Source of the DNA: Streptomyces barkulensis
GTDB lineage: Bacteria > Actinomycetota > Actinomycetes > Streptomycetales > Streptomycetaceae
DNA: 64,000 nucleotides
Direction: 5' to 3'
Assembly: GCF_002843305.1 (NCBI RefSeq)
Contig: NZ_PGSG01000105.1
Coordinates: 62,001 to 126,000 of the forward strand
Shown here: positions 53,394 through 59,650 of the stretch, one piece after another
Layout of the letters: each line of letters starts with the position of its first letter
Numbering within the stretch: the first letter of the stretch is position 1
The notes under the pieces: model-generated
The model's input: only the letters and a program-made list of their open reading frames with translations
Told to the model about the DNA's origin: nothing
The model's database searches: none
Position numbers and translations under genes: made by a program

Positions 53394-54866
53394 TCAGGGA
53401 GCGTGCAGCCGCAGCACGGCACGCTCGGACCAGTCGGCCGGAACGCCGCGCAGCGAGACCGCGGTCATGGTGAGGAACGCCAGCGGAACGGTCCAGGCGG
53501 CGGGCTGGGCCAGCAGCACGGTCAGCCAGGCCGACGACGGCTGCGTCAGGGCGGACAGCACCGCGGCCCCCGTCGCCGTGACCACCCCGGTGGCCAGCCC
53601 GGCCGCCGCGCCCGCGACCGTCAGCCGCGTCCACCAGATGCCCAGCACCAGCAGCGGGCAGAACGTGGAGGCCGCCACCGCGAACGCCCAGCCGACCACC
53701 ACGTTGATGTCCAGGTGCGCCGCCGGCAGCGACAGCAGCACCGCCACCAGCGCACCCGCCGCCACCGCCAGGCGCAGCCTGGTCACCCCGCCGCCGAACA
53801 GATCGTGGGAGAGCCCGCCGGCCAGGGCCAGCAGCAGCCCGGAGGAGGTGGACAGGAACGCGGCGAACGCGCCGGTGGCCACCAGCGCCGTCAGCACGCT
53901 CCCCAGCGTCCCCGGCACGGCCACCCCCGGCAGGACGACGGAGACGGTGTCGGTGGCGTTGCTGTGCACCAGGTGCGGGGTCAGCACCCGCCCCAGCAGC
54001 CCGTAGACGGCCGGGAACAGGTAGAACAGGCCCAGCAGGCCGATCACCAGCACGGCCACCCGCCGGGCGGCCCGGGCCGTGGGGCTGGTGTGGAAGCGCA
54101 TGATCACATGGGGCAGCCCGATGGCGCCCAGCGTGGTGGCCAGCAGCACCGACCAGGTGGACAGCAGCGGCATCCCCGCCCCCTGGATGTCGATCAGCGG
54201 GCGGGTCCACTCCTCGGCGGCCGGGCCCGTCTCCCGGACCGGCCGCAGCGCCTCGGTGCGCGTGTCCGCGCCGACGTGCACGATCAGGTAGATCGCCGGC
54301 ACGGCGATGAAGGCCAGCTTGACCAGGTAGTGGAACGCCTGCACGTAGGTGGCCGACCGCATGCCGCCCACCGCGATCGACGCGCTCACCACCAGTCCGG
54401 CCAGCACCACGCCCACCCAGTACGGAGTGCCGCTGACCAGGCTCAGGACCACCCCGGCGCCCTTGAACTGCGGCACCAGGTAGAGCCACATGATCACCAG
54501 CACGATCACCCCGCACAGCTTGCGGATCGCAGGCGAGCCCAGCCGGTACTCGGCGAAGTCGGGCACCGTGAACGCCCCCGAGCGCCGCATCGGCCCGGCC
54601 ACCAGTGCCACCACCGCGACATACCCGGCGGTGAAGCCGACGGCGTACCACATCGCCCCGACGCCGTCCTTGAGCATCAGCCCGGCCAGACCGAGCACCG
54701 AGGCGGCCGACACGTACTCCCCGGCGATCGCCATGGCGTTCCAGCCGGGGGCGATACGGCGGGAGGCGACGAGGAAGTCCGGGCTGGTGCGGGCGGCGTG
54801 GACGCCGTACAGGCCGATGGCCAGGCTGGCGGTCAGGACCAGGCCGATCGCGGTCACGGCGGTCAC
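53394..54866 (-). CDS. Sodium:solute symporter (SSS family)
   Basis: A 490-aa polytopic protein with about 13 membrane segments. Family signs are DFLVASRRIAPGWNAMAIAGEYVSAASVLG near residue 30, GAGVVLSLVSG and, later, ATTLGAIGLPHVIMRFHTSPT, close to the ActP/MctP-type carboxylate transporters. I chose GTG 54866, which overlaps the stop of the small upstream gene (GTGA). It is the last gene of the kinase-regulator operon. The substrate is probably a short organic acid, by similarity only. Confidence 0.88.
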   Translation of the reverse strand: MTAVTAIGLVLTASLAIGLYGVHAARTSPDFLVASRRIAPGWNAMAIAGEYVSAASVLGLAGLMLKDGVGAMWYAVGFTAGYVAVVALVAGPMRRSGAFTVPDFAEYRLGSPAIRKLCGVIVLVIMWLYLVPQFKGAGVVLSLVSGTPYWVGVVLAGLVVSASIAVGGMRSATYVQAFHYLVKLAFIAVPAIYLIVHVGADTRTEALRPVRETGPAAEEWTRPLIDIQGAGMPLLSTWSVLLATTLGAIGLPHVIMRFHTSPTARAARRVAVLVIGLLGLFYLFPAVYGLLGRVLTPHLVHSNATDTVSVVLPGVAVPGTLGSVLTALVATGAFAAFLSTSSGLLLALAGGLSHDLFGGGVTRLRLAVAAGALVAVLLSLPAAHLDINVVVGWAFAVAASTFCPLLVLGIWWTRLTVAGAAAGLATGVVTATGAAVLSALTQPSSAWLTVLLAQPAAWTVPLAFLTMTAVSLRGVPADWSERAVLRLHAP

Positions 54867-55294
54867 GGGCCGTCCCCCGTGCCCGCACCCGTACCGGGCA
54901 CCGCGCCCGTGTCCACGCCCGCGGAGCTCTCCGCGCGCTCGGCGCGGCGCACATGGCACAGGGCGAGCAGCAGCAGCACCGGGTAGGTGGCCACCACCAG
55001 CACCAGCCACGACACCGGCACGCCCGCCACGTGGAGCCGGTCCAGCACCGGCAGCGCCGCGATCGTCCCGCTGGAGCCGAACAGCACCGTCCCCAGCAGT
55101 GCCACCGTCCGCAGCGCGGTGCGGCGCTGCGCGGCGAACACGGCTCGGGCGGCCTCGGCGTCGGCCGGCGCGGGCAGCGGCAGCAGCTGCGGATGGCGGC
55201 GGTGCCCGCGGGCCAGGGCGATACGGGTCTGCGGACTGGTGACCTTCACCCGGCGCGGTCCGCCGAGCTGACCGCCCTTGACCGGGCTCTTCAC
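54863..55294 (-). CDS. Small membrane protein, symporter partner
   Basis: A 143-aa protein with two membrane helices (residues about 60-82 and 92-113) preceded by a basic Arg/His-rich region. GTG 55294 overlaps the response-regulator stop, and its stop overlaps the symporter GTG. It occupies the place that DUF485 proteins occupy beside ActP, but is not clearly that family. It may assist the symporter. Confidence 0.78.
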   Translation of the reverse strand: MKSPVKGGQLGGPRRVKVTSPQTRIALARGHRRHPQLLPLPAPADAEAARAVFAAQRRTALRTVALLGTVLFGSSGTIAALPVLDRLHVAGVPVSWLVLVVATYPVLLLLALCHVRRAERAESSAGVDTGAVPGTGAGTGDGP

Positions 55295-56088
55295 CGGGCC
55301 GCCCGGCCCAGCCGGCCGCTGCGCGCCGCCTCCAGCAACTGCTCCTTCAGGCTCCGGGCATGCCGGCGGCTGACCGGCACGTCACCGGCCGGAGTGCACG
55401 CCACCAGCCCCGACGAACTGGTGACCCGCAGGTCGTGGACCCAGCCGACGGCCACCAGATAGCCGCGGTGCACCCGCACGAAGCCCGCCGGAGCCCATAT
55501 CTCCTCCAGATACGACAGCGACAGCCGGATCAGATGCGTGCCCTGCCCGGTGTGCAGCCGTATGTAGTCGCCGTGCGCCTCCACGAACTGGACGTCGTCG
55601 CGCCGCACGAACACCGTCCGGCGGCCGTGGTCGATCTGCACGACCGCCAGCTCGTCGCGCGGCCCCTCCGCGCCCTCCGCGCCGTCCGCGCCGCCGGACG
55701 ACGCGGCCCGCCGGGAGGTGCCGATCCGGGCCACCGACTCGGCCAGCCGCTCGGGCCGGACGGGCTTGAGCAGGTAGTCCACCGCCCCGATGCCGAACGC
55801 CTCGATGGCGTGGGACTCCGAGGCGGTGACGAAGACGATGGAGGGCGGCGCCGAGAGCTGGCTGATGACCCGGGCCACGTCCATGCCGTCCAGCCCCGGC
55901 ATGGAGATGTCCAGGAAGACGGCGTCGAAGGCGGTCGCGCCCAGCAGCTGCACCGCCCGGGCGCCGCTGTCGGCGGCGTACACCTCGCCGACCTCGGGTG
56001 TGTCCGCCAGGAGGTCGGCGAGCTCCTCGCGGGTGGACGCCTCGTCCTCGACGACGAGGACCTGAAGGGCCCGCGGCGCGCTGCTCAT
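55291..56088 (-). CDS. LytTR-family response regulator
   Basis: A 265-aa regulator: receiver domain at residues 8-125 with phospho-acceptor D60 in FDAVFLDISMPGLDG and K108 in LLKPVRP, then a LytTR DNA-binding domain (residues about 155-252; RTVFVRRDDVQFVEAHGDYIRLHTG, FVRVHRGYLV). ATG 56088 overlaps the kinase stop (ATGA). LytTR proteins bind pairs of direct repeats of the form ACCGTTnnG spaced about 21 bp; three such sites lie at 59596-59650. Confidence 0.94.
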   Translation of the reverse strand: MSSAPRALQVLVVEDEASTREELADLLADTPEVGEVYAADSGARAVQLLGATAFDAVFLDISMPGLDGMDVARVISQLSAPPSIVFVTASESHAIEAFGIGAVDYLLKPVRPERLAESVARIGTSRRAASSGGADGAEGAEGPRDELAVVQIDHGRRTVFVRRDDVQFVEAHGDYIRLHTGQGTHLIRLSLSYLEEIWAPAGFVRVHRGYLVAVGWVHDLRVTSSSGLVACTPAGDVPVSRRHARSLKEQLLEAARSGRLGRAAR

Positions 56089-57191
56089 TCCGTAACCACT
56101 CCTCGCATGAATCGCGGCACCCTGATGGTCACCTTGGTGCCGTTGCCGGGCGCGGTCTCGATGACGAGGCCGTACTCCGGGCCGTACACGGTACGGAGCC
56201 GCCGGTCCACGTTGGCCAGACCGACGTTCTTCGCGGGAGGGCCGACTCCGGCGAGGATCGCCCGTGCGAGTTCCGGCTCCATGCCCACGCCGTCGTCCTC
56301 GATCTCGATGACGCACAGCGGGCCCTCGCCGAACCCCGAGACGCCGATGTGTCCGGGTCCGGCCTTCTTCTCCAGACCGTGGCGCACGGCATTTTCCACT
56401 ATGGGCTGGACGACGAGGAAGGGTATGGCGACGGGAAGAATCTCCGGCGCCATCCGGACGGTGATCTCCATCCGGTCGTCGAACCGGGCGCGCTGCAGCT
56501 CCAGGTACGTCTGGGTGGCCTGGAGCTCGTCGGCGACCGTCACGTAGTCGCCGGCCGTGGAGAAGCTGTAGCGCAGATAGTCGGCGAAGTCGGTGAGCAG
56601 GCGGCGGGCGCGGCCGGGATCGGTGCGGATGTGCGCGGCGATGACGGCCAGGGAGTTGTGGACGAAGTGCGGGGAGATCTGGGCCCGCAGGGTGCGCAGG
56701 TCCGCCGCCGCGATCCGGGCGCGGGCGCTGCGCAGCTCGGTGTGGTCCAGCGCCTGCGACACCAGCTCGGCCACCTCGGCCACCTCGGCCTCGTCCAGCG
56801 CCCGCTCGTCCGCCGAGCCGCTGACCACCAGGCAGCCCGTCAGCTCGTCCGCCACCAGCAGCGGGGCCGCGCACAGCGGGGACTTGCGGAAGACGGTGCC
56901 GTGCTCGTACACCTGGGCGAGTACGGCGTCCAGATCGGTGCCCGGAGGCAGCGCGCCGTGCCGGGCGACGGGCCCGTCGAGATCGGCGAGCACGACGGCC
57001 TCGGCGCCCACCAGCCGCCGGATGCGGCGGGCCGCGGCCAGGGCCCGGCTGCCGTGCAGGCCGTCCTGGAGGTCCGCGCCGATCAGCCGCACCTCCCGCA
57101 GGACGCCCATGGTCCCGGGCAGGCCGGATCCGGCCGGGCCCGCCCGGCCCGCCCGCCCGCGGCGGGCGCCGATCCACGATCTCCTGGCCAC
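56085..57191 (-). CDS. LytS-type sensor histidine kinase
   Basis: A 368-aa kinase. Residues about 35-150 form a GAF-like domain (AARRIRRLVGAEAVVLADLDG) and no membrane helix is evident, so it is probably cytoplasmic or peripheral. The phospho-acceptor is H175 in AQISPHFVHNSL (His_kinase, PF06580 type), and the HATPase_c domain follows (PIVENAVRHGLE, IEDDGVGM, VGLANVDRRLRTVYG). GTG 57191 has TATACG at 57205-57200 eight bases upstream. It is coupled to the LytTR regulator by ATGA. Confidence 0.92.
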   Translation of the reverse strand: MARRSWIGARRGRAGRAGPAGSGLPGTMGVLREVRLIGADLQDGLHGSRALAAARRIRRLVGAEAVVLADLDGPVARHGALPPGTDLDAVLAQVYEHGTVFRKSPLCAAPLLVADELTGCLVVSGSADERALDEAEVAEVAELVSQALDHTELRSARARIAAADLRTLRAQISPHFVHNSLAVIAAHIRTDPGRARRLLTDFADYLRYSFSTAGDYVTVADELQATQTYLELQRARFDDRMEITVRMAPEILPVAIPFLVVQPIVENAVRHGLEKKAGPGHIGVSGFGEGPLCVIEIEDDGVGMEPELARAILAGVGPPAKNVGLANVDRRLRTVYGPEYGLVIETAPGNGTKVTIRVPRFMRGVVTE

Positions 57192-57222
57192 AGTGCGACC
57201 GTATAACGCGACAAATGGCGAT

Positions 57223-57257
57223 GGGGAGTCCTTCGAACCTGCTTCGAAGGACTCCCC
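57223..57257. promoter_or_regulatory. 15-bp inverted repeat upstream of the LytS kinase
   Basis: GGGGAGTCCTTCGAA and its complement (57223-57237 and 57243-57257) frame a 5-base loop, about 18 bp upstream of the kinase -10 (57205-57200). A separate terminator for the upstream symporter is present at 57336-57362, so this could be an operator or a second terminator. Confidence 0.6.
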
Positions 57258-57335
57258 AAGGGCCCGGTGGCGGGACCGGCGCCATGATGTGGGGGGTCAC
57301 GCCGGTGCACAAGCACCCGCCACCGGGGGCCCGAA

Positions 57336-57376: not shown

Positions 57377-59077
57377 TCAGTGCTTGGCCGCGCCCTCGGC
57401 GCCGGCCCCGGTCAGGGCCCGCACCTGGAGCTCGGCGAAACGCCGCGGGTTGCTCTCGCCCGAGGACAGCGTGCCGACGATCGCGCACAGCAGACCGAGC
57501 GGGATGGACACCAGGCCCGGGTTGGTCAGCGGGAACCACGCGATGTCGATGCCCGGGAGCAGCGCCTTCTCGGTGCCGGAGAACACCGGCGAGAAGACCA
57601 CCAGACCGACCGCGCTGATCAGACCGCCGTAGATACCGGCGACCGCGCCCCGGGTGTTGAACCTCTTCCAGAACAGGCTCAGCAGCAGGGTCGGCAGGTT
57701 GGCCGAGGCGGCGATGGCGAAGGCCAGACCGACCAGGAAGGCCACGTTGAGGCTCTGGGCGAAGATCGCCAGGACGATCGACGCGGCGCCGATGCCGAAG
57801 GCCGACAGACGGGCGACCTTGATCTCCTCGTGCTCGGACGCCCGGCCCTTGCGCACCACGCTGTTGTAGAAGTCGTGCGCCAGGGACGAGGAGGAGGCGA
57901 TGACCAGGCCGGCCACCGTGGACAGGATCGCCGCGAAGGCGACGGCCGCGATGACCGCCAGCATCACCGAGCCGAAGAACTCGCCGCCGAAGTGCTCACC
58001 GACCTCCCGGGCCAGCTGCGGCGCGGCGGTGTTGCCCGCCGCGTCCTGGGCGGTGATGGCCTCCTTGCCCACCAGGGCCGCGGCGCCGAAGCCCAGGATC
58101 AGGGTCATCAGGTAGAACGAGCCGATCAGGCCGATGCCCCAGTTGACGGACTTACGGGCGGCCTTGGAGTCCGGGACGGTGTAGAAGCGGATCAGGATGT
58201 GCGGCAGACCCGCGGTGCCCAGCACCAGGGCCAGACCGAGGCTGATCAGGTCGAGCTTGTTCCACATCGTCTGCAGGGCGTCACCGGGCACCTCGACGCC
58301 GAACCGCAGCCCCGGTTCCAGGAAGGACTGCCCGGCGCCGCTGGCGTTCGAGGCGTCGCTCATCAGCTCGCCGAAGTCGAAGCCGTAGATGGCCATCACC
58401 AGGGCGGCCAGGACGATGGTGCCGCCCATCAGCATGCCGGCCTTGATGATCTGCACCCAGGTGGTGCCCTTCATGCCGCCGAAGGTCACGTACAGGGTCA
58501 TCAGGATGCCGACGACGACGATGCCCACGATCTTGGCGGTGTCGGCGTCCATGCCCAGGTACGTCTCGCCCGGCTGGATGCCCAGCAGAAGGGCGACGAC
58601 CGCACCGGCGCCGACCATCTGAGCCAGCAGGTAGAAGATCGACACGGTGATGGTGGACACGGCCGCGGCGGTGCGCACCGGGCGCTGCTGCATCCGGTAC
58701 GACAGCACGTCCGCCATGGTGAACCGGCCGGAGTTCCTCAGCAGCTCGGCGACCAGTAGCAGGGCCACCAGCCAGGCGACGAGGAAGCCGATGGAGTAGA
58801 GGAAACCGTCGTAGCCGAACAGCGCGATCATGCCCGCGATGCCCAGGAAGGAGGCGGCGGACATGTAGTCGCTGCCGATGGCGAAGCCGTTCTGCATACC
58901 GGAGAACTCGCGCCCCCCGGAGTGGAAGTCGGCCGCGGACTTCGTCTGGCGACCCGCCCACACCGTGACGCCGAGCGTCACGGCGATCATGACGATGAAC
59001 ACCAGGATGGTCAGGGTGCGGCTGCTGGAGCTGACCTCTTCGGCCGCCAGGAGCACGCTGGAAGCGGCGGTCGTCAT
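57377..59077 (-). CDS. Cation/acetate (monocarboxylate) symporter ActP/MctP
   Basis: A 566-aa SSS-family transporter with about 13 helices. The motifs SGGREFSGMQNGFAIGSDYMSAASFLGI near residue 53, GAGAVVALLLGIQPGE, and LVLGTAGLPHILIRFYTVPD place it with ActP/MctP carriers of acetate, propionate, lactate or pyruvate. ATG 59077 overlaps the stop of the DUF485 gene (ATGA). LytTR repeats lie upstream of that gene, so the local two-component system probably controls uptake. Confidence 0.93.
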   Translation of the reverse strand: MTTAASSVLLAAEEVSSSSRTLTILVFIVMIAVTLGVTVWAGRQTKSAADFHSGGREFSGMQNGFAIGSDYMSAASFLGIAGMIALFGYDGFLYSIGFLVAWLVALLLVAELLRNSGRFTMADVLSYRMQQRPVRTAAAVSTITVSIFYLLAQMVGAGAVVALLLGIQPGETYLGMDADTAKIVGIVVVGILMTLYVTFGGMKGTTWVQIIKAGMLMGGTIVLAALVMAIYGFDFGELMSDASNASGAGQSFLEPGLRFGVEVPGDALQTMWNKLDLISLGLALVLGTAGLPHILIRFYTVPDSKAARKSVNWGIGLIGSFYLMTLILGFGAAALVGKEAITAQDAAGNTAAPQLAREVGEHFGGEFFGSVMLAVIAAVAFAAILSTVAGLVIASSSSLAHDFYNSVVRKGRASEHEEIKVARLSAFGIGAASIVLAIFAQSLNVAFLVGLAFAIAASANLPTLLLSLFWKRFNTRGAVAGIYGGLISAVGLVVFSPVFSGTEKALLPGIDIAWFPLTNPGLVSIPLGLLCAIVGTLSSGESNPRRFAELQVRALTGAGAEGAAKH

Positions 59078-59463
59078 GCCCGTCCTCCCGCCCGGCCGGC
59101 GGACGCGCCCGCGGGCGCACCGGTCAGTTCGGCCCTCAGGCCGTCCGCGAGCGGGTCGACCTTCCGGTCGGCGTAGCGCGCGTACATGATCGCGATGCCG
59201 AAGGTGCTGACGAACTGGAGGATCCCGAACACCAGGGCCACGTTGACATCGCCGAACAGCACCGTGGACATCACGTCACGGGCATAGGCGGACATCAGCA
59301 CGTACAGCAGGTACCAGGCGAGGAAGCCGACGCTCACCGGGAGCACGAACCTCATCAGGCTCCGCCTGAGCTGGTCGAAACGCGGATCGCCGTGCATGGC
59401 CACCATGCGGTCCTCCGCGTCCCCGGCGGGGTCCAGGGTTTGTTGTGGACGGTCTGCGGACAC
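59074..59463 (-). CDS. DUF485 membrane protein, partner of ActP
   Basis: A 129-aa protein with two helices (residues about 40-60 and 75-95) in the DUF485/YjcH family, always beside acetate permeases. I chose GTG 59463: AAGGAGGCGGCA stands directly before it, an ideal ribosome site. The ATG at 59478 has none and would make that site part of the coding region. The product starts VSADRPQQTL; RFDQLRRSLMRFVLPVS is the family signature. It overlaps the symporter ATG. Confidence 0.88.
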   Translation of the reverse strand: MSADRPQQTLDPAGDAEDRMVAMHGDPRFDQLRRSLMRFVLPVSVGFLAWYLLYVLMSAYARDVMSTVLFGDVNVALVFGILQFVSTFGIAIMYARYADRKVDPLADGLRAELTGAPAGASAGRAGGRA

Positions 59464-59595
59464 TGCCGCCTCCTTCATCGACACGACGCGATACGACACG
59501 ACGTACGGGAGCGGAAAAGGAATGCGGGGAACGTAAGGTGCGTCACACTCGCGGTGAAGAAGCTGATCGCGGTGTGCGGCGAACGCCGGATACGC

Positions 59596-59650
59596 GCGCC
59601 GAACGGTAGACCGTCGTGCGCCGAACGGTCGTCTTTCCGCGCCGAGCGGT
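59596..59650 (-). promoter_or_regulatory. Three LytTR-type direct repeats
   Basis: On the minus strand, ACCGCTCGGCGC (59650-59639), ACCGTTCGGCGC (59629-59618) and ACCGTTCGGCGC (59607-59596) start 21 and 22 bp apart. They fit the LytTR binding pattern ACCGTTnnG on one face of the helix. They lie upstream of a possible promoter (TTCACC 59558-59553, TACGTT 59535-59530, 17 bp) for the DUF485-symporter pair. Confidence 0.75.

Follow-up and report, generated by a model that had tools for sequence, protein, structure and literature searches.

A short run of direct repeats precedes a DUF485 gene and a symporter gene of Streptomyces barkulensis, which raises the question of which regulator would act through it and on which promoter. 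In the DNA analyzed here (the window, a stretch of 64,000 nt), the initial annotation had described three minus-strand repeats starting 21 and 22 bp apart and had assigned them to the LytTR direct-repeat type. These positions were reproduced by matching with ACCGNTCGG, which hit minus-strand starts 59650, 59629, and 59607 (offsets of 21 and 22 bp). The three copies are present as described, but the count was one short, as a fourth, weaker copy starts at 59587. The full repeat unit, ACCGYTCGNCGC, is longer than had been given.

59639..59650, minus strand: repeat R1, ACCGCTCGGCGC (sequence match, aligned in relatives)
59618..59629, minus strand: repeat R2, ACCGTTCGGCGC, starting 21 bp past R1 (aligned in relatives)
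59596..59607, minus strand: repeat R3, ACCGTTCGGCGC, starting 22 bp past R2 (aligned in relatives)
59576..59587, minus strand: repeat R4, weaker, GGCGTTCGCCGC, starting 20 bp past R3

R4 departs from the consensus at 2 to 3 positions, yet window-type Streptomyces and Nocardiopsis keep it in register. Operators of LytTR regulators are described as two repeats of 9 to 11 nt separated by spacers of 11 to 13 nt (PMC4847170), and in the array the cores measure 9 nt and the spacers 12, 13, and 11 nt. Furthermore, the consensus site of the LytTR regulator AlgR, CCGTTCGTC (PMC4064291), is found with one mismatch in R2 and R3 and exactly in many relatives. The assignment to the LytTR type is supported. 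When the genome was scanned with an extended two-repeat pattern, a single match without mismatch was obtained, the next six all having two mismatches. Pairs of ACCGNTCG at 20 to 23 bp occurred four times genome-wide, two of them being the array itself, versus once for a reversed control pattern. In the rest of the genome (6.53 Mb), the pattern scans turned up no comparable repeat cluster. Lone ACCGNTCGG sites were not enriched (5 in the window versus 7.0 expected from shuffles) and were dropped as evidence.

The genes around the array are arranged as follows.

start 59817, plus strand: lgt, divergent gene, 167 bp from the array
59074..59463, minus strand: DUF485 protein (Pfam PF04341, 100 bits)
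57377..59077, minus strand: MctC monocarboxylate symporter (NCBIfam NF058657, 849.3 bits versus a cut-off of 670)
57215..57262 (approximate limits), minus strand: strong hairpin in the gap between mctC and the kinase gene (gap fold z-score −6.0)
56085..57191, minus strand: LytS-class histidine kinase with a GAF-like N-terminus (no predicted transmembrane helix)
55291..56088, minus strand: LytTR response regulator (Pfam PF00072 and PF04397)
54863..55294, minus strand: SMALL, a small membrane protein (two hydrophobic stretches, no Pfam match)
53394..54866, minus strand: SSS2, a second SSS symporter (Pfam SSF, 138.8 bits)

The array had been placed upstream of a DUF485-ActP/MctP pair. The pair is indeed there, and its second gene encodes, with confidence, an MctC symporter, as the equivalog cut-off is passed. 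The DUF485 gene probably starts at GTG 59463 behind AAGGAGG, and the listed open reading frame extends to 59499. The description of the next operon, with a LytS-type kinase, a LytTR regulator, and a terminal SSS symporter, was likewise accurate, and the regulator, claimed as the only LytTR regulator of the window, is also the only LytTR protein found in the genome. SSS2 is a distant relative of ActP and MctC that scores below every NCBIfam cut-off. It was read as 54866-53394, since a longer open reading frame in another frame gave no Pfam match. SMALL was not accepted as a DUF485 relative, the hhalign probability being 2.3%. The near-perfect hairpin at 57215-57262 is a probable terminator or attenuator, and some inverted repeat occurs in the mctC-kinase gap of 33 of 34 relatives with the same gene order, a count made without a shuffle control (the exception is L036); the mctC and kinase genes may therefore belong to separate transcription units.

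It had been suggested to check whether the repeats are conserved only where the kinase-regulator pair is present. Relatives were searched within 300 bp before the DUF485 gene, using the consensus ACCGYTCGNCG derived from the window copies alone. The strict setting called for a properly spaced pair with at most one mismatch per repeat, and a looser one, picked after inspecting 14 strict misses, allowed up to two mismatches in the second repeat. Among 68 linked candidates (L010-L069, L072, L073, L083, L124, L125, and L170-L172), 63 were usable, after setting aside four with no DUF485 match (L019, L041, L054, and L066) and L021, which begins at the end of a contig; loci with a distant regulator and no mctC did not enter the linked-locus counts. 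The unlinked set comprised the 23 best-scoring MctC matches after seven window-type ones from 148 genomes with MctC (L130-L152), 11 being from genomes without a detected LytTR protein and 12 having one that is on a different contig or separated from mctC by at least 0.64 Mb. The array preceded mctC in 63/63 linked loci at the looser setting and in 49/63 at the strict one, versus 0/23 unlinked loci at both. As the species are related, these locus counts are not independent trials. Missing conservation would have refuted the initial reading, and the comparison did not refute it.

The kinase, regulator, and SSS2 genes stay together in Streptomyces, Nocardiopsis, Streptomonospora, and Glycomyces, and also in Amycolatopsis, Catellatospora, Phycicoccus, and Agilicoccus, with mctC nearby in varying order. 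The linked MctC proteins share 49 to 99% identity with that of the window, and two linked loci with MctC at 61 to 64% identity (L170 and L171) retain the array, so the array goes with the regulator genes and not with a transporter subtype. Autoregulation of the kinase-regulator operon through the array was discarded, since at the looser setting the array occurred upstream of the kinase gene in only 1/66, of SMALL in 0/51, and of the regulator gene in 0/67 of the same linked loci. Among the loci, L031 comes from a record titled Glycomyces fuscus and is a Nocardiopsis-type locus close to L030; this genome is possibly mislabelled.

The operator type is found before other transporter genes in the genus. 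LytTR regulators are present in 119/150 Streptomyces genomes, and a scan of these 150 genomes with the spaced-pair pattern matched 56. In 38/150, leaving out paralogues of G055 and G096, the pair lies 55 to 67 bp before an MFS gene of the OFA family and lactate type (it scores 310.6 bits against a cut-off of 320 in the model for L-lactate MFS transporters and also matches the oxalate/formate antiport family), and three further genomes have a weaker form of this array. The other targets in the 56 genomes were mctC in five (two of them also cstA) and SSS2 in one, and 12/56 had tandem runs or sites untied to such a transporter gene, some of which were not inspected; scan matches without a mapped locus were classed from coordinates alone. 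The array precedes cstA in two of six window-type genomes that carry this gene (G113 and G135), and it was looked for and not found before the cstA of the window genome itself. The occurrence of the same operator type before other lactate- and pyruvate-type transporters in relatives points to a putative uptake-control system hitherto undescribed in Streptomyces.

Sites of this kind also occur in mainline loci. Where a mainline locus carries an ECF sigma gene near the regulator, a three-repeat LytTR-like array (starts at 0, 12, and 32 bp) lies ahead of that gene. This holds for all eight such loci, namely L153 (776-820), L154-L158, L160, and L164, and hints at a cascade from LytTR regulator to sigma factor. 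None of these eight arrays has a TANNNT box. Sites between the regulator gene and SSS2 were detected in 5/17 mainline loci.

Could the array be the operator of another regulator, for example a carbon regulator of the GntR or CRP type, that merely co-occurs with LytTR genes? Further conserved elements do lie near the OFA and mctC promoters, and one genome, G079, bears the OFA array without a detected LytTR protein, its assembly being 78% complete. Against this stand the motif and spacing, which are as reported for LytTR regulators, and the manner in which the array tracks LytTR genes: to the contrast in linkage seen for mctC, the OFA gene adds an array in 40/65 genomes having a LytTR regulator versus 1/12 without a detected one (Fisher p ~0.001, for species that are not independent). 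The array is absent from 25 of those 65, which weighs against the LytTR reading. We thus consider a different owner of the array very unlikely. In several genomes without the array there, for instance at L261, L277, L281, and L290, another conserved element, AATATTGTCTACAGTATGG, was noticed before the OFA gene and suggests that a second regulator may act there.

The array was then set against the nearest promoter-like elements.

59553..59558, minus strand: weak −35-like element TTCACC, 17 bp ahead of the −10-like box (found by eye, inferred)
59530..59535, minus strand: −10-like box TACGTT of an inferred promoter, 52 bp past the R4 start

In all 30 linked mctC promoters bearing R4, the sole TANNNT box within the range searched (25 to 94 bp downstream of the R4 start) lies at 52 to 54 bp. 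The box is at 62 bp in seven Amycolatopsis mctC promoters, at 75 bp in L170 and L171, and at 84 bp in two Glycomyces loci, and it is absent from 3/19 mctC promoters without R4. For OFA promoters, it is found at 54 to 55 bp in 16/22 and at 63 to 64 bp in 4/22, the distance in the remaining two having been taken from the middle of three repeats. Such spacing is as expected for an activator bound on one DNA face, and activation is the putative mode of action. In L176 and other array-bearing OFA loci, the −10-like box ends about 8 to 10 bp before the probable ATG, and the OFA transcript may therefore be leaderless.

Orientation and distance by themselves do not prove activation, and the start of the divergent lgt gene is 167 bp from the array, so that repression of mctC by the LytTR regulator, or service to lgt, had to be weighed. 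Yet the array stops upstream of the −10-like box at a constant distance and does not overlap it; and lgt adjoins the array in 11 loci, which are all from Streptomyces, and a search of the remaining linked loci did not detect it there, whereas the array accompanies mctC in all linked loci. Hence we regard both variants as quite improbable. Chance repeats in GC-rich DNA are practically ruled out by conservation: half-sites taken singly do not exceed their frequency in shuffles, and among the matches of the genus scan were simple tandem runs (e.g., in G091 and G133), but the spaced pair appeared in just 0 to 0.3% of shuffled upstream regions, and the reversed control gave 4 matches in 150 genomes, against 56 genomes matched by the true pattern, and none in 36 genomes.

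We therefore favor, with a probability of about 0.82, the reading that the array is the operator of a LytTR-activated promoter for DUF485-mctC monocarboxylate uptake, served by the neighboring kinase-regulator pair; very probably it is the docking site predicted for this adjacent two-component system. The reading draws on what was observed for the array: its presence, near-uniqueness, conservation, dependence on linkage, promoter spacing, and target families. Points that count against it are the 25/65 LytTR-bearing genomes whose OFA gene has no array, the OFA array of G079, the array-less cstA of the window genome, the 12/56 scan-positive genomes with matches untied to such a transporter gene, and the lack of a TANNNT box at the ECF sigma arrays. 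In the mechanism that we propose from these sequences, phosphate would pass from the neighboring GAF-domain kinase to the cell's sole LytTR regulator, and the regulator would then bind all four repeats. Because the repeat starts are 20 to 22 bp apart, or about two helical turns, the regulator units would sit on one DNA face, and the bound protein would aid RNA polymerase at a promoter whose −35 element is poor and which lies about 52 bp past the final repeat, switching on the DUF485-MctC symporter. The signal would be a small monocarboxylate or its product, as the operator precedes three unrelated transporter families with overlapping substrates. CstA counts as a pyruvate transporter and YhjX as a putative one, and the same function is given for MctC, MctP, and BtsT (PMC7730263). 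Pyruvate or lactate in the first place, then acetate, or a product thereof, is most likely the ligand.

The resemblance to BtsS/BtsR-btsT and YpdA/YpdB-yhjX of E. coli, which the initial annotation had pointed out, is strengthened by OFA and CstA targets elsewhere in the genus, with the correction that the kinase is no BtsS/YpdA-like membrane receptor. The Bts system likewise has a LytS-class kinase, a LytTR regulator, a direct-repeat operator, few targets, and a small-acid transporter as target; the BtsT family is that of CstA, before whose gene two window-type genomes have the array. In BtsS, the pyruvate-binding part is the membrane domain (PMC10653868), whereas the window kinase has no 5TMR_LYT membrane sensor. 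BtsR is the best NCBIfam model for the window regulator, which nevertheless remains below the equivalog cut-off (138.8 versus 246 bits), and the window target is the SSS symporter MctC rather than a CstA-family protein, the window cstA lacking the array. The Ypd system shares a LytTR regulator and, with many Streptomyces genomes, an MFS transporter as target, YhjX being a member of the OFA family. It differs in the build of the kinase, in the target (MctC in the window, not an MFS protein), and in the repeat, which is GGCATTTCAT for YpdB (PMC4847170) and ACCGYTCGNCGC here.

Other systems are similar in one respect and dissimilar in another. Rhizobial RpuS/RpuR and MctS/MctR exert two-component control over a pyruvate symporter named MctP (PMC9100948). 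The window target is likewise a symporter of the MctP/MctC type, judged by its match to the MctC model. In RpuS, a kinase and an SLC5 transporter domain form one protein, and RpuR belongs to the LuxR family of regulators (PMC9100948), whereas in the window the soluble, GAF-like LytS kinase and the transporter are two distinct proteins and the regulator belongs to the LytTR type. AlgR of Pseudomonas aeruginosa is a LytTR regulator whose core site is the core of the window repeat; its targets are unrelated (alginate genes and others) and its sites are scattered and single, in contrast to the one phased array here. With MctC of Corynebacterium glutamicum, the window transporter has in common that it passes the MctC equivalog cut-off. 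The C. glutamicum protein is controlled by RamA/RamB, and to our knowledge no LytTR system is involved.

LytTR control of monocarboxylate uptake is known in Bacillus and streptococci, and carbon supply affects antibiotic production in Streptomyces. Such control is also known from E. coli (PMC5552118). For Streptomyces, the titles and abstract openings of the papers found by searches on LytTR and SCO1220 describe no such uptake system, and SCO1220, an unnamed orphan, is the only S. coelicolor LytTR regulator tabulated in a 2022 review (PMC9739842). If the proposed operator function is correct, actinomycetes would join the bacteria in which LytTR regulators govern monocarboxylate uptake, here by way of a differently built kinase; one operator would have moved between unrelated carriers; and Streptomyces would gain a directly testable monocarboxylate switch. 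A role would thereby be suggested for the LytTR regulators of 119/150 Streptomyces genomes.

How the kinase would perceive its signal was approached through its relatives. All 21 kinases examined match His_kinase (PF06580), and six of them match a GAF domain in Pfam (best E value 4.9e-7; the window kinase reaches only 0.025). At E values up to 1, the 21 proteins match 17 Pfam families, and 5TMR_LYT is absent from these. The N-terminus of the kinase model has no helix outside the GAF-like fold, and the domain looks like GAF, judged from the Pfam matches of relatives and the predicted order of strands and helices. A fold match for this domain was sought and given up, the Foldseek list being dominated by kinase-core matches. 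The GAF-like domain may sense an internal metabolite, or else a partner may do the sensing, for which SSS2 is the obvious candidate. In 17/17 mainline loci without mctC in the vicinity, SSS2 lies beside the kinase and regulator genes. Because SSS2 stays with the kinase-regulator pair, the window kinase lacks a membrane sensor, and SLC5-fused kinases exist, a bolder scheme can be drawn, in which SSS2 and SMALL form the sensor, as a split version of an SLC5-sensor kinase, and the LytTR regulator is a reusable monocarboxylate switch. The stand-alone transporter SSS2 would relay its occupancy to the soluble LytS kinase (compare CrbS, CbrA, and RpuS), and the operator would be placed, by lineage, before MctC, an OFA carrier, CstA, SSS2, or an ECF sigma gene. 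We offer this scheme tentatively and think it rather unlikely.

Some minor observations were made along with these analyses. The nearest relative of the regulator that was fetched is from Streptomyces pini (97% identity). In L213 (G125), the match to the OFA frame is split in two, with about 600 bp in between, so that the gene seems to be interrupted although the array is intact. By eye, a spaced pair was seen in L180 (G120) about 200 bp before a secreted SGNH-type esterase-like gene, which could be chance or a further target. Finally, a hydrophobic stretch opens the mainline kinases of L153 and L155 and might serve as an anchor.
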